The notes under the pieces were generated by a model that saw only the letters and a program-made list of their open reading frames with translations, had not been told where the DNA came from and made no database searches. Positions 11,297 to 26,142 of a DNA stretch of 34,608 nucleotides are shown here, piece after piece. The DNA lies in NCBI GenBank assembly GCA_000151295.1, contig GG745344.1:642999-677606 (forward strand), given 5' to 3'. The first letter of the stretch is position 1; every line of letters starts with the position of its first letter. This DNA comes from Allomyces macrogynus ATCC 38327. Lineage: Eukaryota; Blastocladiomycota; Blastocladiomycetes; Blastocladiales; Blastocladiaceae. Made by a program: the position numbers and the translations under genes.

Positions 11297-11710
11297 TTAT
11301 CCTCTTCCACACCAGAACGTGAAGCCCAGCACGTGTAGAGTGCACTGACAACTGAGCTGCACCCCACCTGTGAACACCAACCGTGTGCATCCAGGATGAG
11401 TTTGTATGGGGGTACCATATTGGTCAGCAGTCAGGTAACATAATGCAACATCACTGAAGTTGAACTCCATTGGGATTCTGGTACAGAATCCCTGGCAGGT
11501 TGCTTTCCTGCAGCCTGCAAGACAGCCTTGCAGGCACCTAGGGAAGACTGGCTGGGTTCTCTGGCTGGTTGTTCTGGGTGGTTGCTCCACTGTCTTTGGC
11601 TCCTGCCTGTGGAGGTTTTGAGTTGACGCCCCAAGAACCTTCATTGCCTTTATCTTTGAGACTGAATAAATAAACGAGGCACATGTGCATTTGTGTTTAG
11701 ACTTACTCAT
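11297..11710 (-). CDS. Hypothetical Cys-rich protein, 137 aa
   Basis: The frame starts at an ATG ('MSKSKHKCTCASFIYSVSKI') and runs to a TAA. The middle contains closely spaced cysteines ('CLQGCLAGCRKATCQGFC', five Cys in 18 residues), and the C-terminal third has a beta-like pattern ('CTRLVFTGGVQLSCQC'). The ATG overlaps the end of the small upstream ORF through ATGAGTAA. The family is unknown, and the closeness to the element's edge and its unusual composition mean it may not be expressed. Confidence 0.3.
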   Translation of the reverse strand: MSKSKHKCTCASFIYSVSKIKAMKVLGASTQNLHRQEPKTVEQPPRTTSQRTQPVFPRCLQGCLAGCRKATCQGFCTRIPMEFNFSDVALCYLTADQYGTPIQTHPGCTRLVFTGGVQLSCQCTLHVLGFTFWCGRG

Positions 11711-11789
11711 GATTAAATTTGCAGCCCTTGTTGTGGCAGGCATTGTAGCCAATGATGGCAAACTGCAACAGGAGGATGGCGATGTTCAT
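11703..11789 (-). CDS. Small membrane-type ORF, 28 aa
   Basis: It starts 'MNIAILLLQFAIIGYNACHN' and ends 'KGCKFNHE'. One hydrophobic helix is followed by a short Cys/His/Lys tail. It lies 58 nt after the extended penton frame and its stop overlaps the next ATG (ATGAGTAA), a coupling typical of compact viral gene strings. Small single-helix proteins are common in such viruses, but this one is too short to assign. Confidence 0.3.
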   Translation of the reverse strand: MNIAILLLQFAIIGYNACHNKGCKFNHE

Positions 11790-11846
11790 GCACAGAATCG
11801 CAACTTCAAAGCCAAGTATTTACTATATACAATCAAAAATTAATTT

Positions 11847-12626
11847 TCACATCAGGAACATGAGCTGGATGGTCCAGTTGTGGCCATTAAAGTTGATGGG
11901 TCACAGCTTGTCATCACACAGTTCAAGCTCAATCTCCATGACTTCCTCAGTGATGGCTTTCGAATCAAAGTTAAAGAATTCAGTGGACGAGTTCTGGTAT
12001 ACGAATGACTGACCCCAACCGCCCTGTACATGGAAAGACGCCACGAGTGAGCCAACATTGGGGAAGGACGAGTGGGTGTAGTCTGCCAACATGGTCCTGA
12101 GGTTGGACTTGAGGTGAATCGTCTGAATGCAGGCAAGGCCAATGGTGTAATCACCAGTGTGTGAAGTGCCACTTGCAATATTCACACTATCATCTGACCA
12201 AGGCTCAGTGCCAAATCTGAGATTTTGGTGAATGCTATTTGGCCTCTGACAGAAAATATGGAAGCTCATGTCACTGTTGGCAATGGTGACACGACCAGTT
12301 GCCAAGTTCCAGGTCACAGACCACGTCACTGTAAAGTGATTTTCAGCATTGCTGCTGTTGAGCAGTTCTGTGAGCTTGTCACAGAGTGATTGAGGAGTGT
12401 AATATGCAGGGGGCACTACAATTGCAGCATCATAAACATAAAAGCCAGGAGTGCCATGAATATGGAGCACATTGTTGGTCTCAGTGATGTTGTACCATAT
12501 GTTGGGAATCATGGCACTGACCACTTGAATGCCCTGGGTCTGGATGGCACATGGGAGGCGCCATGAGACCCCATTCTCCAGGTCCTTGGAGCACACAGTG
12601 ATGTATTTGATGCAAGGGACTGACAT
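11847..12626 (-). pseudogene. Penton-like minor capsid protein (single-jelly-roll type), early stop near the C-terminus
   Basis: The gene starts at an ATG ('MSVPCIKYITVCSKDLENG'). The first stop, TGA at 11,903-11,901, leaves 241 residues. The same frame continues for 17 codons ('PINFNGHNWTIQLMFLM') to TGA at 11,847. That tail fits the usual end of this capsid family, in which a 'D..G.p.dfNG..W.l.l' strand closes the fold, so the first stop looks like a mutation. Other family-like features are 'VVPPAYYTPQSLCDKLTELL' (the PP.YYT..sL motif), dense beta-strand patterns, and 'AITEEVMEIELELCDD' just before the stop. The minor capsid protein of Polinton-like viruses and virophages fills the vertices of the capsid built by the major capsid protein, whose gene lies just upstream. 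Assignment rests on motif pattern and position; the loss of 17 residues may or may not abolish function. Confidence 0.55.
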
Positions 12627-12636
12627 TTAAAGCTAT

Positions 12637-12651
12637 CTGAGAAAAAATTTA
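12637..12651 (-). promoter_or_regulatory. Putative viral promoter motif upstream of the penton-like gene
   Basis: On the coding strand it reads TAAATTTTTTCTCAG, about 11-25 nt before the ATG at 12,626. It shares the A/T-T(n)-C-T/C core seen before several other genes of this element. Confidence 0.35.
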
Positions 12652-12903
12652 CACGCCTCCTGCTGTTCCACCACTGTCCGAGGGGCTTGTACCTGACCAT
12701 GCGTCAAAGAGGTCATAGATGTCATCCACAATGTTGGTGGCACTGGCCACGAATGCAGCAGGACCTGCCAGTGGAGGAATGACAGCTGCAAAATGGGCTA
12801 CCTCACAAATACTGTAAGTAATGTTCTTGAAGTTGTTCATAGTGTGATGCCCATAAGCTGCAAGGGCAAGCTTGAATGAGGTCCAAATTGAGCGGATGTT
12901 CAT
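12649..12903 (-). CDS. Small hypothetical virion-type protein, 84 aa
   Basis: The start is the ATG at 12,903 ('MNIRSIWTSFKLALAAYGHH'), 27 nt after the end of the major capsid frame. Residues of about 30-65 are Ala/Val/Ile-rich ('FAAVIPPLAGPAAFVASATN') and could form a membrane-associated hairpin. The C-terminus is Ser/Gly-rich. It sits between the major and minor capsid genes, which suggests a small structural protein, but I do not recognise the family. Confidence 0.45.
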   Translation of the reverse strand: MNIRSIWTSFKLALAAYGHHTMNNFKNITYSICEVAHFAAVIPPLAGPAAFVASATNIVDDIYDLFDAWSGTSPSDSGGTAGGV

Positions 12904-12921
12904 GGAAGGGGGTTTAACTAA

Positions 12922-12935
12922 CAAGAAAATTAATT
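12922..12935 (-). promoter_or_regulatory. Putative viral promoter motif upstream of the 84-aa gene
   Basis: The coding strand reads AATTAATTTTCTTG, ending 19 nt before the ATG at 12,903. It matches the T-tract plus CTTG pattern in front of the capsid and other genes of the element. Confidence 0.4.
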
Positions 12936-14241
12936 GAAGACGTCCACTGAGCTGTCAGCATTGAAGGAAATTGAGGTCATGTAGCCAACAAAGACATTGC
13001 AGCAATAGGCAACAGTGCCAAGGGTGTTGTCAACTGGGAAGGGGTCACCAGTTGTGAGAATCTTGAGGTCAACACCCGACTTCTTGGCCTTGTCTGAACC
13101 TGAGATGAGCGAGGAGGTCTCAAAGGTGCGTGCAAGGATGAACTGACCCTGAGGTGGCACAAACGCGCCACCTGAGACATAGCCATAGTCAATCCACTTG
13201 GCAGGTGTCAGTTCACCAACAGTGTGGCCCATTGCAAAGACCTCGAGCTCATGGAGGGCCTCAGGGGCATAGCCTGTGCAGTCAATGGGACGCAACTGGA
13301 CCATCTTGTCAGCGTTCTTGATTTGGTAACTCGTGATGGGCAGACTGCGAGCAAGGGGGTCCATTTCGGCCTTGCCATGGTACTGGGGTGTGCAGAATGC
13401 TGCAAGGATGCATTTCTGCATGCTGTGACGGTCCAACACGACAATCGAGCCTGTGGGGGTGACAAAGGCAGGTGTCTTGTGTGCCCAAGTAGTACCAGTG
13501 AACATGACACCACCAGCTGAGGCCCATGCAGCATCGAGTTGAGCAAGCTGGGCAGCATGAGGGGTCACTGTGTTGACCATAAGGTATGGCTCACTGACCA
13601 CAGCCACCAACTGTGCCTGTAGTGTTAATCATGCAAGCCTTGGGCTCAGCGAGTGTAATTTCAATGATGAGGCCCAAAGTGTGCTTGAGGTTGAACCAGC
13701 GGTCCTGGGTCAGGAGAGCAGAGTGCAGTGGGAACATGAACTGGCGGTTTGAGCCTGAGTGGTGCACAGGGTCGCCGTAGCCCTGGCCAATTGACAGCAC
13801 TGTGGTCTTGAGCGCAGATGGGACAGTGGCATCACTCAACATCCATGAAAGTAAGCCATACCCGTCAATGTCTTCAAGCAACTGGTCAGAGGAACTAAGC
13901 ACACAAAGGCATTGAATGCATGAGTGGATACCTTTGGTAAAGTATGTCTCTGGGGCACCAGCTGTCATGGGCTGGGTGCATGCAGCATCCTTGTACATCA
14001 AGGCCTTGAACAAAAAATGCATGCCTGCCAACAAGTCCACAATCTTGTTCACGGCCAGAATCTGGAAGTGGATGGTCAAACCAAGACCATTGCCAGAAGC
14101 AGAGAATGCAGAACCCTGTGTGCACAGGAATTTGATGGTTGTGCAGTCAGCAACTGGCACCTGCTTGGGAGGAGTGTAAAACATCTCCTTGCCAAGTGAC
14201 GTCAGGAGGACATTGGCAACGTTAGTCATAGGTGAAGTCAT
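12930..14241 (-). pseudogene. Major capsid protein (double jelly-roll), split by one frameshift
   Basis: Two overlapping frames together encode about 436 residues. The first starts at the ATG at 14,241 ('MTSPMTNVANVLLTSLGKEM') and runs to a TGA at 13,591. The second becomes open before 13,610 and ends at 12,930 ('SISFNADSSVDVFN'). The first frame ends in the DJR hallmark 'FPLHSALLTQDRWFNLKHTL', leading to 'GLIIEITLAEPKACM'. The second opens with 'VSEPYLMVNTVTPHAAQLAQ', the strand and helix that follow in PLV/NCLDV-type capsid proteins. The C-terminal part has further beta-strands ('AYCCNVFVGYMTSISF'). This protein builds the pseudohexameric capsomers of Varidnaviria. The shift lies within about 13,593-13,635. 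It may be decay or a single-base assembly error, since host genes nearby show similar shifts. Gene order ATPase - MCP - small protein - penton-like protein supports the call. Confidence 0.75.
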
Positions 14242-14264
14242 GTTGAGGAGGTTTAGAAAAGACA

Positions 14265-14279
14265 CAAGGAAAAAAATTA
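14265..14279 (-). promoter_or_regulatory. Putative viral promoter motif upstream of the major capsid gene
   Basis: The coding strand reads TAATTTTTTTCCTTG, ending 23 nt before the ATG at 14,241. It overlaps the last codons of the ATPase frame, which suits compact viral organisation. Confidence 0.45.
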
Positions 14280-15059
14280 CGAGTATTCGTCTTCCTGTTG
14301 GTGCTGTTCTCGCATAATAAACAAGTGAAATTTGTAGCAGTACCTGACACCTGGATTCTGCATGTTGATGTTCAGAGTTGCATGTGGTGTTGTGAAAATT
14401 TCGTTGCATGCTGCCAGGAGCTCTTCCCACATGAACAGACCTCCACATGCATCATAAATGGTCTACAACTCGTTTTTGTTGTATGTCTTGAACAGCACAT
14501 ATTATGACATGTTGTTGTGAGCAAGTGGCAAAATGGCCTTGAACAGCTGCACCAACAAAATCATGGAGCACTTTCAATGGTGGGACAGTGCAATGAAGCT
14601 GTCGAGGAAGCACGAGCAGGCAAACTTGGTGCCTGTAATGTCGTCCAGCACAATGAGAATGTTGTCAATGGTCCCAGGGTGCTTTGTATAGTCGCGCTTC
14701 TCTGGGTCCTGGAGCATGGCGATTTCCTTTAATTTGGCCTCCACTTCTTCATCCTTGTGAATAAAGCAGTCACGCAACACGGCGAGCAGCTCTGGGTTGT
14801 AGGGGGCTTTTGGGTCGTGTTTGAGGACAGGCGTTTCAGTAAGCTGTTGCCACTTTGGGTCAAGGTGTGAGGTGGGCGAAAAGACGTAAATTTTCGAGAA
14901 ACAGTGTCGCCAACACTGCGGTGACAAAATCATGTTGAGGGCTGTCGTGGACTTGCCTGCCGCCTTGGGTCCCAGCATACACACTGTGGCTGGTATCTTG
15001 GGCACAAGGTAGGGGCCACCTCAATGGGCCTGGTTGTCAAGTGCTTTCACAGTGAACAT
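14277..15059 (-). pseudogene. A32-like (FtsK/HerA superfamily) genome-packaging ATPase with four in-frame stops
   Basis: One reading frame runs 783 nt from an ATG at 15,059 ('MFTVKALDNQAH') to a TAA at 14,277, a normal length (about 260 residues) for PLV/NCLDV packaging ATPases. The Walker A motif GPKAAGKST lies at residues of about 30-38 and Walker B 'NILIVLDD' at about 133-140. Between them is 'FSKIYVFSPTSHLDPKWQQL', a typical family stretch. The C-terminal half retains family-like sequence ('MILLVQLFKAILPLAHNNM', 'YVLFKTYNKNEL'). The frame is broken by TGA (15,023-15,021), TGA (14,576-14,574), TAA (14,504-14,502) and TAG (14,465-14,463), with no frameshift. The intact enzyme would pump viral DNA into the capsid. 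Its start overlaps the end of the upstream gene by 23 nt. The longest uninterrupted piece, about 148 codons, includes both Walker motifs. Confidence 0.82.
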
Positions 15060-16436
15060 GGTTATAGATTACATTTGAAAAATTATTTGTTCTGGACACC
15101 ACCAATGCCTTGTGGGACATAGTAGACCTTTCATCCCTGTGGTGTGATGACACGCGCCCCAACCTTTGCTGGCACTGTAAAGGTGCATGTGGGTTCTTGC
15201 AGAAATGGGGCACAGTGGCAAAGTAGTTGTCAACAGTGCGTGGCTTGTCATCCCATGGCATGTGAGGGGTCTTATTAAGTGCACTGGCAATTTGCTTGAG
15301 CATGTCATTCATCATCTTCTCCTCCTGGAGACCTGGACCATCATCCCCTTCACCACCACAGCTCCCACCATTGGCGCTAATGACTTCCACCATGTTCTGC
15401 GCCTGTTTGAGGATGCCTGACAGCTTGTTGAGGGGGTTTTTGGCTGACTGGTTGAGAGCGTCAATGACACGACCAGGGAGGGATGACAGCTGTTCAGGGA
15501 CTTGCTTGAGCGTTTTCTGCATTGCATACTGACCGTCTGCAAGTGCTTCTGTAATGTGCCCAATCTTGTTGATCGTGCCTTGTTGTCCTTAATCTCACGA
15601 TTGTTTTCAAAGTTTTGCAGTGATTGCTCACTTGTGAAGTGCTCAAGTTGCTCTTGGACATACTGACTGGCAAGCTGGGCAGTGTTCCCACCTTCAGCCT
15701 TGAGTTCCATCTCCAGGCCATTCAGGGCTTGCAGGAGTGCATCATTGCGCTCACTGACATTGAGGAATGTTGCTTGGATGCCCTGGAACAGTGTGGCAAG
15801 TGCCAGTTCAATGCCTGGGTATGTCTGAATGATGTTCTGGGTGTTCTGGATGTTCTGCTGGTTGAGTGTGTTCTGCATGAGATTGTTCTGTGTAAGGTTG
15901 TTCTGGATGTTCTGCTGGTTCAGGGTGTTGTTCTGCTGTGTGAACATGACTGCCTGGTGGTTGCCACCCACTGTTGGATTCCAGTGTGCACCCACAGGTC
16001 CAGGAACACCATTGTTGTTTCGTGCATTTGATACTGCTCGCTCATATTTGCCCAGCACAGGCACAACAGCAGTGGGCGGTTGCTCTGCCATTTGACAAGC
16101 AAGGATGGGAGGGACATACAAGGCAGGCATCATTTTGTCACCTGGAATTTCCCTAGCTGGGACAGGGAGGAGTGAGGGCTTGACAGGCACCATTTGCATA
16201 TTGTCATGGGGCTCTTCAAACTCACCCTGTGCACGTCCATGCGTCACCTGCATGTCGTCTGGAGGGGGGTACTGCACACCTGCATTGGGGTTTGCATCAG
16301 CTGGTCCTTCATCCTCATTGCTTGAAATTTCAATGTATGGCCACTCACCATTGTCCTGTGCATTGTTGTCCGCGTCCATGTTGTCCTCACCAATTTCAGA
16401 GTCTTTGATGAACTCGCTATCTCCCCAGCTTTTCAT
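15037..16436 (-). pseudogene. Unknown viral protein with Asn/Gln-rich repeats and coiled coil, one frameshift
   Basis: The start is an ATG at 16,436 ('MKSWGDSEFIKDSEIGEDNM'). Residues of about 1-90 are acidic, and residues of about 167-204 consist of a Gln/Asn repeat ('NTLNQQNIQN' occurs twice, with degenerate copies between). About 220-285 is predicted coiled coil ('LNVSERNDALLQALNGLEME'). The frame then shifts near 15,575, and coding character continues in the next frame ('ALADGQYAMQKTLKQVPEQL', later 'HMPWDDKPRTVDNYFATVPH') to a TGA at 15,037, overlapping the ATPase start. The total would be about 466 residues. Asn/Gln-rich trimeric coiled coils occur in fibre or scaffold proteins of viruses, but I do not recognise this one. 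As with the capsid gene, the shift may be decay or an assembly error. Confidence 0.5.
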
Positions 16437-16445
16437 GGGATGAAG

Positions 16446-16706
16446 TCATGACACCAATTCGTTGAGCGTGTTCATGTCTTCAGCATTCTGAAGTGGCTGA
16501 CGCTTGATTGACTTGAAGAATCGCATCAGGTCGCACAGGAACCAGGATGTTGATGATTGATAATCCCTCTTCTGTGTTGTTCCAATAATGCGAAAACTGG
16601 TACCATCCCAGTAAGGCTCAATGACATCATCATTTTCTGCAAGGATTTTCTGGATAATCTCCTTGCAGGATATAGTTTCTTTCTGAGCACCACCCTTGGG
16701 GGGCAT
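16446..16706 (-). CDS. Hypothetical viral protein, 86 aa
   Basis: It starts at an ATG ('MPPKGGAQKETISCKEIIQK') and lies 9 nt before the next gene's ATG at 16,436, so the two are probably co-transcribed. The sequence looks like a small alpha/beta domain: a helix 'CKEIIQKILAENDDVIEPYW', a strand 'FRIIGT', and a helix 'SSTSWFLCDLMRFFKSIKR'. No family is recognised. It is preceded by the shared T-tract motif. Confidence 0.5.
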   Translation of the reverse strand: MPPKGGAQKETISCKEIIQKILAENDDVIEPYWDGTSFRIIGTTQKRDYQSSTSWFLCDLMRFFKSIKRQPLQNAEDMNTLNELVS

Positions 16707-16732
16707 GTTTGGTTGAAATGTTTAACTACAAC

Positions 16733-16748
16733 CAAGAAAAAAAAATTC
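16733..16748 (-). promoter_or_regulatory. Putative viral promoter motif upstream of the 86-aa gene
   Basis: The coding strand reads GAATTTTTTTTTCTTG, ending about 26 nt before the ATG at 16,706. It is the clearest copy of the element's shared T-tract plus CTTG motif. Confidence 0.45.
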
Positions 16749-16811
16749 ACAAAAGTCCAAGGAGCATGTTCAGCTGGACCTTTTCCCACTCCAATTCACG
16801 TTTCTTTAGTT

Positions 16812-17024
16812 TCAGGCGCATTCAGTCACAGACTGCTGAGGCATGGTCCTGGTCTGTGGTGTCCTTGAAAACTGGTACCAGCACAGCTTCTTTTGCTTCT
16901 CCTTCATGTAGCGGTCAATGTAGGCCTCCTTGGCCCCATCATCAAGGTCATAGAAGGCTTTGGGCAGACCAAGGTACTCACTGACCTCATCCAGTGTCTC
17001 AAACTGTTCTTCAAAGCTGTTCAT
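16812..17024 (-). CDS. Hypothetical viral protein, 70 aa
   Basis: The start chosen is the ATG at 17,024 ('MNSFEEQFETLDEVSEYLGL'). An upstream ATG at 17,069 would overlap the divergent fibre gene. The N-terminal 45 residues are acidic and helical, followed by a basic tail ('YMKEKQKKLCWYQFSR'). The gene is divergent from the fibre gene, with 32 AT-rich bases between the ATGs (17,025-17,056), where promoters for both are expected. No family is recognised. Confidence 0.45.
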   Translation of the reverse strand: MNSFEEQFETLDEVSEYLGLPKAFYDLDDGAKEAYIDRYMKEKQKKLCWYQFSRTPQTRTMPQQSVTECA

Positions 17025-17056
17025 TTTAATTTTGTGGCTAGAATATAATAATCCAC

Positions 17057-18265
17057 ATGAACACTCCACTAAACGTATTTGGGCTCATTGCGGATGACAG
17101 CTCATATGCCATGGACGCTGAATTGGCTGCAGCAATTGCTGGTGTTGTGGCAGGCACAGCATCCACAGTGGCAACCCCTCCCCTGACAGCCACTGGTGGC
17201 AATGTGAGTTTGGCTTACAACACGGCCACCTTCTCCGTGAATGCCAACAACCAGCTGTCTGTGAAAGATGGTGGTGTTTCAGACGCCAAACTGTCCATTG
17301 TGAATGGCTTGCAGCTGACTGATGCCTCAGTTACAAATGCAAAGGTCGTGTCACTGGATGCAGCCAAAATCACTTCAGGTGTGCTGCCTCTGAGTGTTGT
17401 GCCAAGCATCCCCTCAATGCAGGTCACAGGCACCTTTGGCAACACAAGTCTCACTGGTCTGAGTGCCACCAAGCTCATTGGTCAGGTTTCCAACATGCAA
17501 ATCTTGGGTCTCAACTCAACAAAACTGACTGGGACCATCCCACTCGCCAATCTGCCAGACTTGTGCACCAAGGTGTCATCTGTGAATGGGTCCCTTGTGA
17601 GCAGAACACTATTGCAGTCCACACTTGGGTTGGGCCAGCAATTCACTTTTGGCAACACAACAGAGAGTACCACAATGTCAATGAGCGGCATTGTCATTCA
17701 GGGTGGTCTGGGCGTGGCAAAGAGCGTCAACATTGGCAGCAATGCCACTGTCACAGGGAACCTTACAGCTGCCACAGCTGTCACCAGCTCCCATGTGCCA
17801 ACCCTCATGCAGGTTCAGGGCTTGATTTCAGCAGGCACCACGGGCTTTCTCACCCCATTGTCTGCTGTGGCACTGACTCTGATGACTGACAGTGTGTCAT
17901 CAGGGAGTGGTGCACTGACAGTGGCTGGTGGGGCAGGCATTGCAAAGAATCTGTATGTGGGCGGCAATGTGGTTGCAACCAGGAATGTCAGTGGTGCTAT
18001 GGCCACTGTGGGCACCCACATCCACCAAAATGGTGAAAACGAATATCTGGCCTGTCTGGGCTTGCTCTTGGACACTGGTGGCAATGTGGCTGGCAAATGC
18101 TGGGTCAATGAGAACATTGATGCGGTATCCCTTGTCCTTGGCCTATTCGCTCATAATCGGGCCATGCATCCATGTCTGCTCACCCTCAACTTTGAGGTAG
18201 GGGTAGTCCTCTGTCTTGGCACATGTCAGGTACACTGGGTCGCACTGCAGACCCACAGCCGCTGA
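17057..18265 (+). CDS. Fibre/spike-like viral protein with repeated beta segments
   Basis: The start is the ATG at 17,057 ('MNTPLNVFGLIADDSSYAMD'); 402 residues if read to the TGA at 18,265. The protein is rich in Ser, Thr, Val, Gly and Asn and consists of short beta-strand repeats. 'DAKLSIVNGLQLTDASVTNA' and 'KLTGTIPLANLPDL' resemble trimeric phage-tail-fibre repeats. Two copies of a GG(L/A)G(V/I)AK(S/N)(V/L)(N/Y)(I/V)G(S/G)N motif occur at residues of about 216 and 291; this motif is common in fibre-like proteins of algal large DNA viruses and Polinton-like viruses. A host-attachment role is inferred. It is one of only two plus-strand genes of the viral block. The last 41 codons overlap the convergent minus-strand gene ending at 18,143 and lose the repeat character, so the true C-terminus may be shorter or altered by a frameshift. 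Confidence 0.6.
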   Translation: MNTPLNVFGLIADDSSYAMDAELAAAIAGVVAGTASTVATPPLTATGGNVSLAYNTATFSVNANNQLSVKDGGVSDAKLSIVNGLQLTDASVTNAKVVSLDAAKITSGVLPLSVVPSIPSMQVTGTFGNTSLTGLSATKLIGQVSNMQILGLNSTKLTGTIPLANLPDLCTKVSSVNGSLVSRTLLQSTLGLGQQFTFGNTTESTTMSMSGIVIQGGLGVAKSVNIGSNATVTGNLTAATAVTSSHVPTLMQVQGLISAGTTGFLTPLSAVALTLMTDSVSSGSGALTVAGGAGIAKNLYVGGNVVATRNVSGAMATVGTHIHQNGENEYLACLGLLLDTGGNVAGKCWVNENIDAVSLVLGLFAHNRAMHPCLLTLNFEVGVVLCLGTCQVHWVALQTHSR

Positions 18266-18961
18266 AATGAAAATGGCCAGGAGACCATCTGGCAATGGCT
18301 GGACAGGAACAGTTGCTGCATAGGCTTTGCACTGGTCGAGAGACACCACCAGGGGCTTCTTTGCATTGAGCACACTGGCCATTTTGCCCTTGGTTTTGTG
18401 GCATTCATGGCATTGGTGGTGGAGGTCCTCAATGTCCACGTTTGAAAAACGCTTTCCTGACAACTTGATGCCATTCAAAGCAGCTGCCATGTCCTTGAGC
18501 TGATACACATTCATCAGGTCAAACAGCCATGACCATTCAGTGACAATGTCAAGCCCCTCACTTCCTTTCATCTGTGACGCATTGCCCTTGAGCCATGTCA
18601 GCATGTTTTTGCGGCGCTTCTTGGTGGCTTTTTCGCATGGCTTGTCATTAGCATCATTCACATACTCCTTAAGGAGCGGTTCGAAAACGAATTCCTCAAG
18701 TGCTGGCTCGTGTTCCTGAATCACAATCTCTGATTCCAAATCACCAGTGGGCAGCTTGATAATCTCCTTGGGCTGGTCCTGGGGCAGTTTCAGAGGCAGT
18801 TCCTGGGGCTTTTCCTGTGGCGGTTCCTCGACTTTCACACCCATGGCTGCCTGGAATCGTTCAACAAATTGTGTCATGGCTGCAATGCCACGTTCAAGCT
18901 GGGCAATGCAGTTCAGCATGACAGCCTGACCCTCAAGAAGCTGCTGAAGAATCTGTTCCAT
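18143..18961 (-). CDS. Unknown viral protein with N-terminal coiled coil and CHECH motif, 272 aa
   Basis: It starts at an ATG ('MEQILQQLLEGQAVMLNCIA'). Residues 1-45 form a likely coiled coil, 46-75 are Pro/Gln/Glu/Lys repeats ('EEPPQEKPQELPLKLPQD'), and about 112-125 are very basic ('KATKKRRKNMLTWLKG'). 'LHHQCHECHKTKG' at about 185 could bind zinc, and the C-terminal 70 residues look like a compact alpha/beta domain ('LLAIFISAAVGLQCDPVYLT'). It has no recognised family; the layout suggests a nucleic-acid-associated or scaffold protein. The frame is uninterrupted. The shared promoter-like motif lies 18 nt upstream. Confidence 0.5.
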   Translation of the reverse strand: MEQILQQLLEGQAVMLNCIAQLERGIAAMTQFVERFQAAMGVKVEEPPQEKPQELPLKLPQDQPKEIIKLPTGDLESEIVIQEHEPALEEFVFEPLLKEYVNDANDKPCEKATKKRRKNMLTWLKGNASQMKGSEGLDIVTEWSWLFDLMNVYQLKDMAAALNGIKLSGKRFSNVDIEDLHHQCHECHKTKGKMASVLNAKKPLVVSLDQCKAYAATVPVQPLPDGLLAIFISAAVGLQCDPVYLTCAKTEDYPYLKVEGEQTWMHGPIMSE

Positions 18962-18978
18962 GTTTGTTTATCCTAGGA

Positions 18979-18991
18979 CAAGAAAAAGAAT
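18979..18991 (-). promoter_or_regulatory. Putative viral promoter motif flanked by CCTAGG
   Basis: The coding strand reads ATTCTTTTTCTTG, ending 17 nt before the ATG at 18,961. It is framed by two CCTAGG hexamers (18,972-18,977 and 18,992-18,997), so the T-tract sits inside a small inverted repeat. Confidence 0.4.
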
Positions 18992-19018
18992 CCTAGGTCC
19001 AAAACGCGTTTGAGGATA

Positions 19019-19258
19019 TCACTTACAGAGGAAGCAACTGTTGTAGGTCGCCTTGATGATTTTGCCACAGCAACACTGTTTTGTGGGACCTGACGCCTGA
19101 ATGTGGCAATGGTAGCAAATCTGGTGACCCGCCTTGTACACGAGTTTGGTGCATCCTTTTGTCGCGCAATGCTTTGCTTTCTGCATGCACAACATACACA
19201 TCGTGTATTTGGTTGAATTTGGTTTTGAGCATTTGACACACGTTTTCACTGGAGGCAT
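19019..19258 (-). CDS. Cys-rich zinc-ribbon-like protein, 79 aa
   Basis: It starts at an ATG ('MPPVKTCVKCSKPNSTKYTM'). Thirteen cysteines fall mostly in CxxC knuckles at residues 7/10, 21/24, 48/51 and 75/78, plus C31, C36 and a CCC at 62-64. Paired CxxC knuckles of this spacing fold as zinc ribbons or treble clefs, used by viruses for transcription factors or DNA-binding proteins. The rest is Lys-rich, which fits nucleic-acid binding. The exact family is not recognised. It lies 30 nt after the upstream gene's stop, on the same strand. Confidence 0.55.
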   Translation of the reverse strand: MPPVKTCVKCSKPNSTKYTMCMLCMQKAKHCATKGCTKLVYKAGHQICYHCHIQASGPTKQCCCGKIIKATYNSCFLCK

Positions 19259-19288
19259 TAGAGAGTAGGCTGGTGGTGGACTTGGGGT

Positions 19289-19735
19289 TCACGTTTGAAT
19301 CTGGACAGGCTTCCTGTCGAGTAGGCATCCCTGTGTTTTCGGGTGGCGCTTTCCACAGGGCATGCAGTCAAATGTCTTCCACTCACATATTTTGATTACT
19401 TTATTAATCTCTTTCCCCATGGCCTCATCAACACGTTCAATGCATTTTACCCCAATCCCACTTTTCACTGTGCCATTCCCGACAATCCACACTTCTTTGA
19501 CATGGATTCCACAAAGACATGTCAAAATCTCATTTGGCTGTTGTGTATGATGCCCAACATGTTCAAGACCTTGAAGTAGGATTTGAAGCTGTATTTTCTG
19601 CTCAACCTCTTCCACTGGCATATCCAACAAGGCAGAGAGCCGGTTCACAAGCCATTCTGGTGACTTGAGTGGATTTTGCTTCCCAGGTTTTGCACACCAG
19701 TACAGTTCCCTGGGGTGTTGGCGGATTTTGTCCAT
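19289..19735 (-). CDS. Unknown viral protein, 148 aa, with C-terminal Cys/His motif
   Basis: It starts at an ATG ('MDKIRQHPRELYWCAKPGKQ'). The N-terminal half is helical ('WLVNRLSALLDMPVEEVEQK'), the middle has beta-strands ('EVWIVGNGTVKSGIGVKCIE'), and the C-terminus has 'CMPCGKRHPKTQGC', a C-x2-C-x4-H-x5-C arrangement that could hold zinc. It is the first gene of the minus-strand run and is divergent from the gene starting at 19,864. No family is recognised. Confidence 0.5.
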   Translation of the reverse strand: MDKIRQHPRELYWCAKPGKQNPLKSPEWLVNRLSALLDMPVEEVEQKIQLQILLQGLEHVGHHTQQPNEILTCLCGIHVKEVWIVGNGTVKSGIGVKCIERVDEAMGKEINKVIKICEWKTFDCMPCGKRHPKTQGCLLDRKPVQIQT

Positions 19736-19830
19736 CTTTAGTTCATACCAATTTGTAAACTTCAGGACTTAATTTGCGACACGACTGGATTATCAATGAG
19801 TTCAAACGCATATGATTTCGTGCATATCCC

Positions 19831-19844
19831 CTCTTTTTTTTCTC
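19831..19844 (+). promoter_or_regulatory. Putative viral promoter motif upstream of the 19,864 gene
   Basis: CTCTTTTTTTTCTC lies about 20 nt before the ATG at 19,864, on the plus strand. It matches the T-tract plus CT core found before minus-strand genes of the same element, so the motif follows gene orientation. Confidence 0.4.
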
Positions 19845-19863
19845 ATTCCAAAAGTCAGGAACA

Positions 19864-20460
19864 ATGCAGAACACAATCTCGCCCCAGCTCAAGAAAACCA
19901 TGACCCACCTTGACAAGCTCCTGAATGACAGTCGCCAAGTCGTTCTTTGTGAATTTGTCAACATGGACGTGCTCAAGGACCTTACCAAGAAGCACTCGGG
20001 TGTTCCCCAGGACATCAAGAAGCAGCTCAAGGCTTACCACAGCCTATTCAACCTGTCCTATGGGGATGGCAAGGAGACTGTCTACTTGTTCACAAACAAG
20101 AAGTGGAACCAAGAGAAGCGCTTTGGACGTCTCTCTGCTCCACCCATTTTCAAGACCATCTTGTTGGTTTACAACCTCAACAGCAAGGCTCTGGACCTGT
20201 ACCTCGAGAATCGTGACGAGGCGCTGTCCAAGTACAAGCTTATGGAAAAGTCCGATTTTCTGAGCGTCATTTTCAGTGAACATCCACCCTGAAGCCTTCA
20301 CCCAGAGCTCATGGAGATGCACAAGACGCTGTACAATGTTTTGCACCCGCAGATTGCTGCTGATTACCTGGTCATTGTTCAATTCTCAAAGTAACGCTCT
20401 GTCTCAGTTGTCAACAAGGGCTCAGTCATGGCAAATGTGTTCCAAGCATTCCCAAAGTAA
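19864..20460 (+). pseudogene. Unknown viral gene with two in-frame stops
   Basis: It starts at an ATG ('MQNTISPQLKKTMTHLDKLL'). The frame is open for 142 codons to TGA at 20,290-20,292 and then keeps coding character in the same frame ('LHPELMEMHKTLYNVLHPQI') to TAA at 20,392-20,394. A further 21 codons follow to TAA at 20,458. The product is an alpha/beta protein with Lys-rich patches and 'PPIFKTILLVYNLNSKALDL'. No family is recognised. Both internal stops are one C-to-T change away from sense codons (CGA, CAA). It is the last recognisable gene at this end of the viral block and is followed at once by short tandem repeats. Confidence 0.5.
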
Positions 20461-20480
20461 GCCATCCTAGGTCAGAAATC

Positions 20481-20592
20481 TCACAGAATGCCCCCTAAAT
20501 TCATAGAATGCCCCATCCCGGCCAAAGAATTCATAGAATGGCCCCTAAAATTCATAGAATGCTCCCCGAAATTCATAGAATGGACCATTCCC
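20481..20592. repeat. Degenerate tandem repeat with ATTCATAGAATG core
   Basis: Four full copies of ATTCATAGAATG plus a variant first copy (TCACAGAATG) are spaced by 7-20 bases of C/A-rich sequence such as GCCCCTAAA. The core ATTC-ATA-GAAT is itself an imperfect palindrome. The array starts 20 nt after the last viral frame. Confidence 0.7.
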
Positions 20593-20631
20593 AGAACCCC
20601 CTGGCTGTAGTGCAGCTGTGCTGCCCACACA

Positions 20632-20928
20632 TGGACCTAGGTCCAAGACAGCAGTTCCTAGGTCCATTTCCCCTGTCCATCCCTCTTGAGCACCTGTTCT
20701 CAGACTTGCTCGCAGTACATATCCCCAAATTCCACTCACCAACCGTCATGGACCTAGGTCCCAGGATTTGGTCCAGGTCCCCAGGCTTACAGGGGCATGT
20801 CCAGAGCCCTGCCTGAAGAATCAATCGTAGTGGTCATGGTAGGGTGTTTAAGGAGGTGGTGGTCCAGGAGCGCTTGGACTTAGGACAGCATTTTTACTTA
20901 TGGTTGGACCTAGGGCAGGGTCCTAGGG
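20632..20928. repeat. Cluster of CCTAGG palindromes (GGACCTAGGTCC and variants)
   Basis: TGGACCTAGGTCCA (20,632-20,645) is a perfect 14-bp palindrome. Related copies occur at 20,657-20,666, 20,749-20,762, 20,904-20,914 and 20,920-20,928. The CCTAGG hexamer also flanks the motif near 18,985 and occurs in the transposon ends. Confidence 0.55.
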
Positions 20929-22573
20929 CAGATGTGGCGCCAACCTTGAGGTCAGTGCCAGTGGAAGTGGCGTGTGTATTGAGTGCATTGCCCAAAGTGT
21001 GAGCATGCACGCTTCAAGTCTCTGCCAAACAACTATCACTGCATGTGGGGCCAATGGTTCAAGTCAAGCAACTGCATGGGAAATAACATGACTGTGACTA
21101 GTCAGCACACATGCCAGTAACAGCAGTACCCATACCATTCAGCATCTGATGGTGCACAAGCATGCAATGGCACACATGCAACAGCACCCACACATCAACA
21201 GGCAACCATGCAACAGTACACATGCAATGGCAATGGCAACTGGACATGAGTGCACACACAACAGCAACAGCACCTGGGATGGGGTGAATGTGATGGTCAA
21301 CATGCAGCAGCACCTGCAAAAACTGCACCTGTGCAACTGGACCAGCACCAACAGCGCCTGAACAAGTGGCACTTGCTCTGCACCATCCACAAGACCCCAC
21401 CCATCCATGAAAGACCATCTGCACGACATGTGCAAATGACACTACTTTCTTGGCAGCCTTTCTCAAAAGCTCTTTATTTTGATGGCGCTTTATCTTGACA
21501 GCACACATTTGCAGCAGCACAGAGTGAGGTCAGTCACAGGAGTGAGAGTCCAGGGATGAGACGGTTTGTGGGAGCTGCACTGCATGTATATGACTGGTGG
21601 TGGAGCACAACTCTTGTTGCAACATCATGACAATCTGACAACCTGATGATGCCTGCACAACACCCTGGTGAGCAACTTGAATGGTGATGACAGGTAACAG
21701 TTAGAGCATGGCCATGAATGTGCTACTGTTATCATGGCCGCTTACAGTTGCAGTCATGAGCATGATGATATGCACCCGCCCACCCAACATGTGGGCTGCA
21801 GAGAACGACTGGAGGCAGCAACACATGAGGACCACTTGCACCACTTTCCATTGATTCAAGGTGGTTGTGTGTCAAGGAGCTTGATTCAAACAATAAAGAT
21901 GGGGAGCAGTTCTTCTGGTGGTTGATGTGGAAAGCCTTGGCACAAAAAATTGGAGTTGAGGAAAGGCTGGGGAACACAGTTACAGCAATACTCTGCTGTT
22001 TGGCATGTGTTGTCATGCACAACATATCAAGGAGGGATTGGAAAGTGGTGGAGAAGAGTGGTAAAGTTGTGGTGAGGCGATTCTGCACATTCTAAAACCG
22101 AGAAAACAACAGAGTGCTTACAATCAAGGCAACACACGACCAAGACACCAGGCCCAAGGACACCTGTGGATTTTGAGGACTTGATGCATCCACCATTGCT
22201 CTTGGTGGCTTTTGGCTCAGGAATCTTGCACAGAGGTGGGTGCTGCAGAAAAGAATGTCCAGACTGCTGCAGCTCAAAAAGCAGATCCCAGTTGATGTGT
22301 GGGTGTGGAACAAGGTTGACAACATTCAAGGTCATGCACATGTGAGGAAAGTACATCAAATGGGCAACTTTGAGAACATGTTGGAACAAATTACGCACAA
22401 CCAGAGAGGGCAGGTGCAGTGCAAGTGCATCAACAAGACAAGTGAAACCAAGCATAACCTTGGCATCAGTATCAAGAATTGCAATTGCTGCTAGATCCAA
22501 CACGCCTTGTTCAACATACATTGCAGCAGCTTGCCATGCCAATGAAGGCAACAATTGCACACATGGCACAATA
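20929..22573. other. Non-coding or fully decayed part of the insertion
   Basis: It is TG/CA-rich and CpG-poor. 21,120-21,360 is dominated by short imperfect ACATGCAA/GCAATGGC and CAGCA repeats. Open frames occur on both strands but have skewed Cys/His/Met composition and match nothing. The last part (about 22,100-22,573, minus strand) is open and continues, in phase, the frame interrupted by the transposon; see the remnant at 26,143-27,910. Confidence 0.45.
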
Positions 22574-22656
22574 CTGTAGTGGCTCCTAGGATAGTCCACA
22601 ATAGAAGAAAGGGCCCAGGCCTAAGCTAATGCTTCATCTGGTGTTGGAACGGCTGG
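22574..22656 (+). repeat. Left terminal inverted repeat of the pogo-like element
   Basis: 83 bp, starting CTGTAGTGGCTCCTAGGATA. It matches the reverse complement of 26,061-26,142 with three substitutions and one single-base indel. Confidence 0.9.
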
Positions 22657-23017
22657 ATCAGTGGGCTGCCACACACTGCAGCAGGCCACATCATTGGCCC
22701 ACTGATGTGTGCACTCAGTGGTGAGTCCATGGCAACAAACAACATGACTCCATCTGACAAAGTTGCACTGCTCCTCTACCATTGGTCAGCCAGCCGCAGT
22801 GATGGATGTCATGATAACTGTGCACATGAGCCTGTCCCACCACCCACTGCACACATCCATCATGACAAAAGGGAACCCTGGCAAGCTGTGCAAAGACCCC
22901 AAAGAGGACCACACTGCATGGCTCATGGCCATTGCTGTGGTAAAAGTGGGCAAGCGCATCCCCTAAACACAGCACCACAAAACAAACAAGAACAAGCTAC
23001 AGCTAATCTGGCTGAAG

Positions 23018-25742
23018 ATGACGCTTGAGGGACTGGCAACAAGGTGCCCACTGACGTGCTCAGTCACAGTCTTCCACCAGGCCTTTGTGCCCAAGGGCAT
23101 GAGCAAGAGCATGCTGCAGAAATTGCTCCACAAGCATGGTCATGACAGGCGCATTGTCAGCCTCAAGGGGTTGCAGCCAAGCATGAAAGCAGTTGGCAAA
23201 GGTGCTCAGCCCAAGTTCCCAAACACCAAAGGCCTCCTCCAGGCGTTTGTTGCAGAGCGTTTGGCCAAGGGGTTAATTACCACAAAGAGGCACATTGTGC
23301 TAAGGATCAGCATTGTTATTTATGATTGGGCCCTAGCAACAGGGCAAGGCTGTTCATGCATTGAAAAAGCGTGTTTCATGCACCAGGACCAGAAAGGAAT
23401 GGACAAACTGACCACACAGAGTCTATTTATAGCGATTCGCAAGCATGCCCTGACCACCAATCTGGCCTCAGGGCCATTCCATGCCACAAAGAAGTGGTGG
23501 CTTGGCCTCAAGTACCACTGGTGTATTGCACGCCATCAGATCACAACCACTGGCTGCAAACCCATCAAGGCCAAGGAACTGCACATTGCCAAGTTCCACC
23601 TGGAGCTCCTCAACCTTGTCGCCTCATTGAAATTTGCAGTCATTGTGAACCTCAAAGAAAGCAGCTTTGCATTCAAGGAGTCTGGCAACACAACCTATGT
23701 ACCACCTGGGACCAAGGTCATGCACTGCACCATGGAGCAGTCAGGCAGCAAGAAGCACACAGTCACAATCTTGGGCTTGATGGCCATCTTCCCAGATGGC
23801 ACTACAAACTTGCCAACCGCATTGCTTGTATTGCCAGGCCTGTGAGCTCATTGACTCAGACCCAGCCACCACCAAATGTGAGGATGGTGCAGGTTTCTCT
23901 GACCCTAAGTGGTGCTGCTGTCAGTGACCAAGCCAACCAAGGACGAGTGGGACACATACACTGTGTGCAATGCACACATGTTCCACTCCAGCAATGGGTG
24001 GTACAATGAAAATGGTTTGTACATTGAGTGTGGGCAGGAGTAGTGTTGTCAACATGCAAATCTAACAGACCACCATTTCAGTGATGCTACAGTACATGCA
24101 CATGTCACTCATCCTGCAGTTTGTGCACCTCAACAGCCTGAAACTGCTTGTCATTGACAAGGCAAGCTTCCACATGACCACATGCGTCTGTATCTGGTCC
24201 AAGGCGCTTGGGTGGACCGTCTTCTTGATCCTGGCTGGCTGCACTGACATTTTGCAGCCAGTGGACGTGATGCTGAATAAAGTCATGAAAGTATGTTGCA
24301 CAATGAGCCTGATGCACACTGTGTGTGGACATTGGGGCTGATGGTCAACAAAACAGGCAATGCACTGTGACTTGTTTATACCAAGGGAAGAAGAATGGGC
24401 CACCAAGGAAAATGCACACACAAGTCACGTCAAGGTGGTGCAACATGCCATGGTCGACAAGGCCATGTGCACAGGCAACATGAACTGGCTCAAGCACAAG
24501 CTTGAGACTGCTGAGGAGCACACAGCATCATCACCCAAGTTCAGGCAATTTGTGACGACCAGCCCTATGATGGCACAAGTGAGCTTGGTGACAACATGAC
24601 ACAGCAGCTTGGCCAACCTGGTGGTGATCAAGAAGATACAAACTACTGTCACAGAGGCCACCACTACCTGAGTGGCTGCTGTGCAAGCTGCCAGTGGTCT
24701 GGCAGAGTGTGGTCATGGTCACAGTCATGGGTGGGGAGGATGTGGTTGTGGGCAGGGTGGAGGTGGTCATGGCAGGGAGAAGGTGGTCCTGCATCAGTCA
24801 TTGAGCCCATGCACACTGCTGTCAGTCTTGGAACCATCAGTATGGAACTGGTCAGTGGCCCCACATGTGCCACTTGTCCCACACCCATCATCAGTGCTGG
24901 CAATGTTGCCAGTCCCACATCGACCATTGGCCCCATGGCAGCCAGCTGGAACAGTGACATGCAGAATGAGGCCAGGGACAAGGACGATTTCAAGGGCAAC
25001 ACCCAGTTGCTGATGCCAATCAAGCATGCGCTTGTCATGGACATGCTGATAGCAACATGGGATGTGCTGCATGAGAACAGTATTCATGACAAGATCAAGC
25101 GCATGTTCACAAAAGTGGGCATCAGGTTCATGGAGGCGTCCATGTTGTCAGCCAACATAAACATCAAGGGGCTTGAAGACTACAAGATCACAACAGCCAC
25201 ACTCAAGAGCGAGTCTTTCATCCACCACAACCATGGCCGCCACAAGATCTTGAGCCTGTTCCTGGAAAACGAGTGCACATTCCTGGCCACTCTTCTGGCA
25301 CTGCCTGTTGGTCCCCAAGGTACCATGCATCCTGGGGCTGATGCTGTGGCCACTGCCAGTGCCAGGCAACTGGCTGTGGAGGAAGTGCAAACAAACCTTC
25401 CACAGATCGCTCAGGTCAATGTTGTCATGGCTGAGGCGTCAGGTGTGGTTTGATACAATGGGGATGGCAGCAGCAGCCAATGGTGGTTTGGTTGCACTAT
25501 TGGCTGAGGGTGCTGATGAGATTGATGACGATTTGGACGGTGATAACGATTCAAACAGCAATGACGATTCGGATGACAATTTGGCCAGCAATGAGGAGAG
25601 CAAGGCCCGAGGTGATGGGGCCCAGCATGCCAATGACAACTGGATTGTGCATGAGCTGGTGCCAGAGCTGGAATTCGAGGAGGTTGTGTTGCAGAGTTTT
25701 GACGATGTTGCTGGTGCCAACAGCAACAGCAATGATGATTAA
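23018..25742 (+). pseudogene. DDE_1-family transposase, broken into several frames
   Basis: The first piece, 23,018-23,845, has an N-terminal CENP-B-type DNA-binding region ('FPNTKGLLQAFVAERLAKG', later 'WWLGLKYHWCIARHQITTTG') and the start of the catalytic domain ('VIVNLKESSFAFKESGNTTY', 'KKHTVTILGLMAIFPDGT'). A second frame (about 23,930-24,030) contains 'FHSSNGWYNENGLYIE', and a third (24,081-24,341) carries 'LLVIDKASFH' and 'AGCTDILQPVDV', the second and third catalytic Asp motifs. A fourth (24,596-25,453) has a C-terminal helix 'WDVLHENSIHDKIKRMF'. The last (about 25,450-25,742) is an acidic tail. The first catalytic Asp, expected in N-x-D-E-(T/S), is Lys here. With at least three frame changes this cannot encode an active enzyme. 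Confidence 0.75.
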
Positions 25743-26060
25743 GGAGCGGCTGCAGGGGCGGTTGGGCGGGTTGAGTTGGGACAGCATGAGTGGGGCAGTG
25801 TCAGTGTTGAGTCCATGTACATATCAGGTCTATTGGGACAGGCTTTTGACGCATCTGCATCGCTCCCAAGGCTGTTTTGCAACTGTCGCTGTTGTGCATG
25901 GTGGGAGCATGGGCCAGAGTGGAGGAGGAGTGTGCAGTGCGACCCTGTCAGATGGGGTCACATTTCTTATTGCCATGACCTCACAGTGACATGCACCAAG
26001 TGGGCAGGCTGATGACGCGGCCAGCAGTGGCGCATGGCGGTCCACCAATGCACAGCAAAG

Positions 26061-26142
26061 CCAGCCGTCCAACACCAGATGAAGCATTAGCTCAGGCCTG
26101 GGCCCTCGCTTCTATTGTGGACTATCCTAGGAGCCACTACAG
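26061..26142 (-). repeat. Right terminal inverted repeat of the pogo-like element
   Basis: 82 bp, the reverse complement of the left repeat. The outermost bases end in CACTACAG, followed by the TA target duplication. Confidence 0.9.

Follow-up and report, generated by a model that had tools for sequence, protein, structure and literature searches.

A stretch of the genome of the fungus Allomyces macrogynus ATCC 38327 bears on how the linear genomes of Polinton-like viruses (PLVs) may avoid losing their ends. This stretch, the window in what follows, comprises 34,608 nucleotides of contig GG745344.1 (assembly GCA_000151295.1; C59:642999–677606 in the handles used here), in an assembly of 54 Mb and 75 contigs. 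Between 11.5 and 20.96 kb, the window is a single integrated viral element, now decayed. Each of the many integrated copies of such elements in this one fungal genome preserves the ends of a separate insertion, and taken together these ends point to hairpins. Judging from sequence comparisons, we consider it probable, at roughly 60%, that the PLVs studied here copy the ends of their DNA through folded palindrome hairpins and insert the opened ends with a retroviral-type integrase.

The first-pass annotation of the window, made from its letters, had proposed an endogenous Polinton-like element in a fungus. The proposal was borne out by the fold of the major capsid protein (MCP), an A32-type packaging ATPase, terminal inverted repeats (TIRs), target duplications and, in better-preserved copies, genes for an integrase and a protein with a helicase domain. 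A search of the host assembly for fuller copies, which the annotation had advised, yielded the C48 copy, with 15,008 bp between the TIR ends and TIRs that align over 674 bp at 98.7%. TIRs were found in the C48, C65 and C67 elements.

Palindromes at the element ends

We read 48 TIR ends inward, 36 from the lineage of the window (the a-lineage), nine from the C65 lineage and three from the C67 lineage. A palindrome of 25–27 bp with the edges TG...CA opens 43 of the 48, in some cases in a decayed state, and its sequence differs among the three lineages. In the window lineage, 32 of the 36 ends follow the pattern TG-arm-GACCT-loop-AGGTC-arm'-CA or a decayed form of it. The C65 lineage has the palindrome TGTCGTATACC or TGTCACGGACT at eight of nine ends, and all three ends of the C67 lineage carry a perfect 26-bp palindrome of a different sequence. 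The tips without a palindrome (L048, L049, L051 and L055 of the a-lineage, and C31:404185) belong to the 48 but not to the arm statistics, which concern 32 a-lineage ends. Outside the set lie the a-lineage TIR matches C75:53654–53838 and C69:697609, which were left unread, and C58:54911, which is N; no left end was located for C60:1075k, and the ends of C59:888k, C65:1241k and C73 fall outside the survey.

The outer arms are fully complementary in 13 of the 32 window-lineage ends and match at 5–7 of 8 positions in the remainder. At positions 3–8 of these ends, 160 of 192 cells are complementary, where shuffling the arms among the 32 ends gives a mean of 121.7 (standard deviation 4.9). For the 23 distinct arm pairs the corresponding figures are 107 of 138 and 79.8. 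None of 20,000 shuffles came as high in either case; because the ends share ancestry, both counts are a description and not a strict probability.

The kind of change is better evidence than the shuffle counts. Arm mismatches inside one copy comprise 30 transitions and a single transversion, whereas pairwise comparison of the five distinct perfect arms yields 16 differences, every one a transversion; when the comparison takes in all 17 distinct outer arms, including those that have decayed, it counts 109 transitions and 216 transversions. Positions 3 (G, C or A) and 6 (C or G) vary between copies and show no within-end mismatch in 30 ends. Transitions within copies, set against transversions between copies, thus suggest that each insertion most likely carried a perfect palindrome of its own, which decayed afterwards.

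In the TIRs of the C65 lineage (L071, L072 and L073), a second perfect palindrome of 18 bp, CGCGACAGTACTGTCGCG, lies about 50 bp inside the tip.

Loop orientation and insertion sites

Ten elements have both tips (C57 and C64, with one tip lost each, are outside the ten). C55, with different tips and no target duplication, was excluded from the loop comparison, and C41:243k and C67 are uninformative, their loops being self-complementary. Of the seven informative elements, C48, C58 and C65 have loops of opposite orientation at their two tips (for example, TTTGA against TCAAA), and C72, C61:238k, C74 and C41:184k have one loop orientation at both. Such a mixture fits neither plain TIRs nor a single duplicated junction, since the former predict loops that are always the same and the latter loops that are always opposite. 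Genomes with hairpin ends are known to show just such a flip-flop pattern.

In every two-tip element except C55, the palindromes are flanked on their outer side by a perfect 5-bp duplication (GGTGG, TCATT, TAATA, GATGC, GAGCG, GTGAG, AAACG, GTTCA and ACAGT), and the rve integrase is matched in Pfam at 2.1e-8 in C48 and 1.2e-9 in C65. TG...CA edges together with 5-bp duplications would fit the action of such an integrase. They would also be enough for an ordinary rve-integrated element, in which selection maintains the palindrome as a feature recognized by the integrase, and conversion copies the plain inverted repeats at the ends. Plain inverted repeats, however, should always present the same loop when read inward, and three of the seven elements have opposite loops; positions 3 and 6, which vary over 30 ends yet are matched inside each of them, likewise speak against this account, which we regard as quite unlikely.

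A different history, with one palindrome per end and no closed hairpin telomere, would have the palindromic junction of concatenated or circular genomes cut with a stagger of 25–27 nt between its edges and then filled in. This would explain the complementary arms, the opposite loops and the TG...CA edges equally well, and the present data do not separate it from closed hairpins. The stagger required is unusually wide, however, and we think this route unlikely to be the actual one.

A tyrosine-recombinase-like protein

A gene for a tyrosine-recombinase-like protein is present in each lineage searched. When 11 copies, representing at least four lineages, are aligned, the second arginine (Arg-II), the histidine and the tyrosine are found in all 11 rows and the first arginine (Arg-I) in nine, the lysine being unscored. 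The two arginines are 106–113 residues apart (11 rows), Arg-II and the histidine 26–30, and the histidine and tyrosine 9 (the eight rows with the histidine located by script). In TelA, as given in the available part of the source, the residues are R255, R366, H394 and Y405, with spacings of 111, 28 and 11 (PMC3558466). The motif pattern appears to fit a tyrosine-recombinase active site, without discriminating between a telomere resolvase and an integrase, and we treat the protein as a candidate hairpin-handling enzyme.

The palindromes could instead be binding or crossover sites at which this protein excises or inverts the element, with no hairpins involved. The presence of the gene in each searched lineage would suit this, as would the resemblance of arms of about 11 bp flanking a 3–5-bp spacer to recombinase half-sites. 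Yet the proteins of C48 and C72 are 94% identical while their arms read TGGCGCC and TGCCGCG; because the arms vary among same-lineage copies with nearly the same protein, the palindrome does not behave as a site recognized by its sequence. Nor, among the 20 exact palindromes in the genome, is there a solitary one that could be the footprint of an excision; this count covers the exact pattern only, with tips of 5-nt loop or changed core outside it. The judgment was made by position relative to TIR matches, the palindrome on C47 having a TIR of only about 57 bp. The 5-bp duplications, moreover, lie outside the palindrome and are consistent with the rve integrase, and altogether we judge a role as recombination sites improbable.

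Proposed mechanism

On the hairpin reading, the viral DNA would be linear, with a terminal palindrome that folds on itself. At every replication or resolution the second arm would be copied from the first, the folded end either priming synthesis or being closed and then resolved from a junction. Such copying would let the arm sequence drift without loss of complementarity, and would leave the loop flipped. The weakest step is the resolution of the junction, which might be carried out by the tyrosine-recombinase-like protein of the element or by the integrase. The TG...CA edges would then be joined to a 5-bp staggered target, and inserted copies would decay through CpG transitions and deletions, as the window copy did. 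In this scheme, we infer that the hairpins are closed, which enzyme resolves them and in what order the steps follow.

A linear genome with no family-B DNA polymerase in the scanned frames would need some other route of end completion: nine C48 frames gave no Pfam match to such a polymerase or to a protease, the small and coiled-coil-like C48 frames lying outside the scan and part of C65 being N. A more specific form of the hairpin reading, in which small double-jelly-roll viruses of fungi encode a telomere resolvase of the tyrosine-recombinase type that closes their hairpin telomeres, while a retroviral integrase joins the opened hairpins to the chromosome, is tentative, and we lean mildly against it. 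If the hairpin reading is true, small double-jelly-roll viruses would be tied to the hairpin-ended large DNA viruses.

Besides the shared ancestry that limits the shuffle counts, several observations weigh against hairpins or against the enzyme proposed to handle them. The palindrome is absent at 5 of the 48 ends, the loop evidence comes from seven elements only, the opposite loops of C48 differ by one base, and all copies read are integrated, no extrachromosomal DNA having been seen. In the recombinase-like protein, Gln replaces Arg-I in C48 and C72. Pfam at E ≤ 10 (six proteins) and a profile search of the Protein Data Bank (PDB) gave no recombinase match, single-sequence and profile searches of PDB and Pfam returned nothing credible for the protein, and its AlphaFold model, with a predicted local distance difference test (pLDDT) score of 36, is unusable. 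The histidine–tyrosine spacing is 9 here against 11 in TelA, and the tyrosine that TelA carries before Arg-II is absent (PMC3558466, available part).

Capsid-module genes

The open reading frames (ORFs) of the capsid module lie where they had been annotated, within a low-GC island. The MCP had been read as a double jelly-roll, and we examined the fold by AlphaFold2 on P0003, the closest usable intact relative, rather than on the broken gene of the window; P0003 is 41–42% identical to the two MCP pieces there. The model is of modest confidence (mean pLDDT 56, predicted TM-score 0.56, and 169 of 423 residues below 50). Foldseek matched it over both halves to solved double-jelly-roll MCPs of iridovirus (3.4e-11), PBCV-1 (1.3e-10), PR772 (2.3e-9) and PRD1 (1.7e-8). 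There are 131 matches at E ≤ 0.001, and TM-scores are only about 0.4–0.5. Viral matches of the model include a protein of Tetraselmis viridis virus S1 (2.6e-9) and many MCPs of nucleocytoplasmic large DNA viruses (NCLDVs). A double jelly-roll is supported for the family of the window MCP gene by this modest-confidence model of a relative, and the annotation's caveat that structure prediction might show none did not materialize.

The packaging ATPase was also correctly recognized. Its Walker motifs are in frame, and the longer C48 protein (265 aa) matches Pox_A32 of Pfam at 6.8e-9, as does that of C65 at 1.5e-11, an assignment to the A32 family made without an ATPase tree; the truncated window frame (143 aa) has no Pfam match at E ≤ 1. 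The protein called penton-like matches DUF5901 (PF19254) in the window at 1.6e-6, above the cut-off, and in C48 too, with no such match found in the C65 element; of the annotation, the protein stands, and its penton role is what we infer. The fiber was right in kind: against PF06536, the avian adenovirus fiber, the window frame scores 1.1e-4 (22.5 bits, just under the 22.7-bit cut-off) and the C48 frame 3.5e-5 (24.0 bits, over it). Its extent needed correction, as the ORF at 17057–18265 is a chimera that is fiber only to about 18019 and then, past a deletion junction, antisense of the recombinase-like gene. The GGxGVAK repeats presumably resemble the adenovirus shaft.

The nearest MCPs are those of Allomyces arbusculus (94% to the C48 MCP) and A. 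macrogynus P0002 (82%). A protein search with the MCP gave three matches among the 7996 best candidates scored, the only one outside Allomyces being a metagenomic MCP at 42%. The recombinase-like query found three matches, all in Allomyces, and the rve query six weak ones at 28–34% identity. Viral contigs scanned with MCP (A1, P0003), rve, ATPase, helicase-domain and penton-like queries yielded no confirmed relative, records near the own genome possibly having been excluded. The suggestion of a divergent lineage agrees with these searches.

Copies, lineages and selection

The gene set of C48 consists of a replication protein in two frames, a Cys-rich protein, the recombinase-like protein, the rve integrase, the fiber, small proteins, a coiled-coil-like protein, the A32 ATPase, the MCP and the penton-like protein. 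The two replication frames, of 228 and 546 aa, are adjacent, and the longer matches DUF5906 at 1.2e-18. We take DUF5906 to be a D5/superfamily-3 helicase domain and the 228-aa frame to be TVpol-like. The first-pass annotation had found replication, protease and integrase genes not visible, which is right for the window as regards the integrase and most of the replication gene; rve and DUF5906 are present in C48, and the absence does not extend to the virus.

The distant C65 copy is 28% identical to C48 in the MCP, 37% in the ATPase, 38% in rve and 33% in the penton-like protein. Its capsid, integrase and fiber genes stand in the same order, and its replication region is different and partly masked.

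Replication proteins seem to differ by lineage, with L035:3–569 and L038:6041–7999 in C65 (judged by eye) and the DUF5906 frame L037:6361–7998 in C48, alongside related capsid and integrase genes. The first of the C65 frames is presumably akin to archaeo-eukaryotic primases and the second to superfamily 2.

The ATPase has 30 matches in the genome, at no fewer than 26 loci (a lower bound) and with identity down to 30%. Among six a-lineage ATPase frames (15 pairs; six of eight loci, L006 and L008 having no 200-aa frame), the ratio of nonsynonymous to synonymous divergence (dN/dS) is 0.02–0.15 at dS of 0.16–0.75. For the recombinase-like gene it is 0.15–0.34 in five of six pairs, the sixth being saturated. 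These low ratios indicate purifying selection on both genes, and the copies thus likely descend from lineages that were still functioning between insertions.

Comparison with known systems

The Polinton-like kind is already known from A. macrogynus, and the discovery is not wholly new: PLV genes for the MCP, ATPase and helicase were reported in 2021 by Bellas and Sommaruga (PMC7805220). The likeness lies in these integrated genes, with P0002 at 82% to the C48 MCP; the ends, the target duplications, the two integrase-type genes, the fiber and the several lineages come, so far as the accessible text of that paper goes, from the present analysis only. The gene content of a group of fungal DNA viruses is thereby laid out, of which earlier literature, in its accessible parts, named only a few genes.

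PLVs of Tyrannomonas regina and other protists share with the Allomyces elements the MCP, minor capsid protein, A32 ATPase, TIRs and rve with 5–6-bp duplications; some have a tyrosine recombinase, and most lack the protein-primed family-B polymerase (pPolB) of Polintons (PMC12747079, PMC4642659, in the parts available). In T. regina, a tyrosine recombinase occurs together with an rve-type integrase (PMC12747079), accompanied by direct terminal repeats, in contrast to the inverted repeats in Allomyces. The available text of these papers mentions no terminal palindrome, unlike what is seen here, and the only hairpin passage in that of PMC12747079 concerns giant viruses. Polintons, or Mavericks, share the double-jelly-roll MCP, the A32-type ATPase, the rve integrase and TIRs; they combine pPolB and rve with 6-bp duplications, whereas here rve occurs with no pPolB or protease match in nine C48 frames and with 5-bp duplications (9 of 10).

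Palindromic ends are shared with hairpin-telomere genomes, namely those of poxviruses and phage N15 and the telRL-like site of phaeoviruses (PMC13236599, PMC3558466, PMC12270096, PMC8956199, available parts). Poxviruses have hairpin-ended genomes with flip and flop loops (PMC8956199), and the Allomyces elements share the loops; closed ends are putative here, the copies in the assembly all being integrated. Phaeoviruses, which are giant viruses, carry a telomere-resolvase gene and an N15-like palindromic site (PMC13236599); next to such resolvases, the Allomyces protein is a candidate only. Among the titles and abstract openings listed from the open-licence literature, none describes a PLV or virophage with ends that are palindromic or form hairpins, though PMC11172284 and PMC6723459 each use the word 'hairpin' once along with virophage or PLV terms; terminal palindromes with covarying arms and flip-flop loops are new for PLVs as far as this search shows.

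The DUF5906 frame at L037:6361–7998, D5-type on our assumption, lies inside a Polinton-like element. A viral D5 primase-helicase of A. macrogynus has been ascribed to NCLDVs (PMC5294986, available part), and given the position of the frame, that gene may belong to Polinton-like elements of this kind.

The element in the window

Within host DNA of about 60% GC, the GC content drops to about 50% over roughly 11.0–28.3 kb of the window; the viral element is 11,539–20,960 only, and the remainder of the low-GC stretch lies outside it. Its features are as follows.

11539–20960, no strand: integrated element remnant, 9.4 kb; collinear C48 blocks (86–94%) stop at 11539, and the right TIR tip is at 20960
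11901–12626, minus: penton-like minor capsid protein, 241 aa; PF19254 (DUF5901) 1.6e-6, 28 matches in own genome
12649–12924, minus: small protein, 91 aa, in the interval between MCP and penton-like genes; open frame
12930–14244, minus: double-jelly-roll MCP (as modeled on P0003), 437 aa in C48 but here in two frames, shifted near 13.6 kb
14574–15005, minus: A32-type packaging ATPase, stopped prematurely after its first 143 aa; Walker A GPKAAGKST, Walker B NILIVLDD; 265 aa in C48
15037–16436, minus: Gln/Asn-rich, probably coiled-coil virion protein, two frames; C48 block 86–90%
16446–16706, minus: small ORF, 86 aa; open frame
16812–17069, minus: small ORF, 85 aa; 111-aa frame in C48
17057–18019, plus: fiber, N-terminal part with GGxGVAK-type repeats; PF06536; C-terminal half deleted; 585-aa frame in C48
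18019–18021, no strand: deletion junction, 2.54 kb missing against C48; alignment jumps from L033:5041 to L033:2498
18021–18961, minus: N-terminal part of the tyrosine-recombinase-like protein, interrupted by one in-frame TAG; own-genome search and motif alignment of other copies
18976–19735, minus: Cys-rich (zinc-binding-like) protein, frameshift-split; 249-aa frame in C48
19864–20292, plus: replication protein, N-terminal fragment; in C48, a 228-aa frame adjoining the 546-aa frame with DUF5906
20586–20960, minus: right TIR, decayed, 80% to the C48 TIR; C59:663726–663958
20935–20960, minus: terminal palindrome, decayed; outer arms complementary at 5 of 8 positions

Frameshifts interrupt the genes for the MCP, the coiled-coil-like protein and the Cys-rich protein, and the ATPase and penton-like frames stop early, the latter about 20 aa short of the 261-aa frame of C48. 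Of the Cys-rich small proteins in the first-pass annotation, a Cys-rich gene is present, though broken. Against C48, the window copy lacks the left TIR and three internal stretches, namely 2.54 kb at 18,019/18,021 (the fiber C terminus, the rve integrase and the end of the recombinase-like gene), 88 bp at 20,137/20,138 and about 2 kb from 20,448 to 20,586. These deletions, and not the gene content of the virus, explain why the integrase and most of the replication gene are missing here. In the capsid block (11539–15187), 94 of the 158 CpG sites of C48 are TG or CA in the window, among 227 transitions and 118 transversions overall; such decay suggests that the host methylates cytosines in inserted copies.

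Many copies have an open ATPase frame, as they might had the fungus domesticated the capsid genes. The window copy, however, is deleted and has at least five broken genes, the copies are separate insertions with a target duplication each, and the CpG decay of the capsid block points the same way, which leaves domestication, as opposed to a virus relic, very improbable.

At the site of the loss of about 2 kb from the replication gene, positions 20492–20591 hold four copies of a 28-nt repeat containing AATTCATAGAATG. Beside the viral element and still within the low-GC stretch, a separate structure at 22569–26147 is bounded by inverted repeats of 80 bp that are 3.4 kb apart and 96% complementary; it contains a transposase-like ORF at 23018–23845, which has no Pfam match at E ≤ 1 and which we take to be pogo/Tigger-like.

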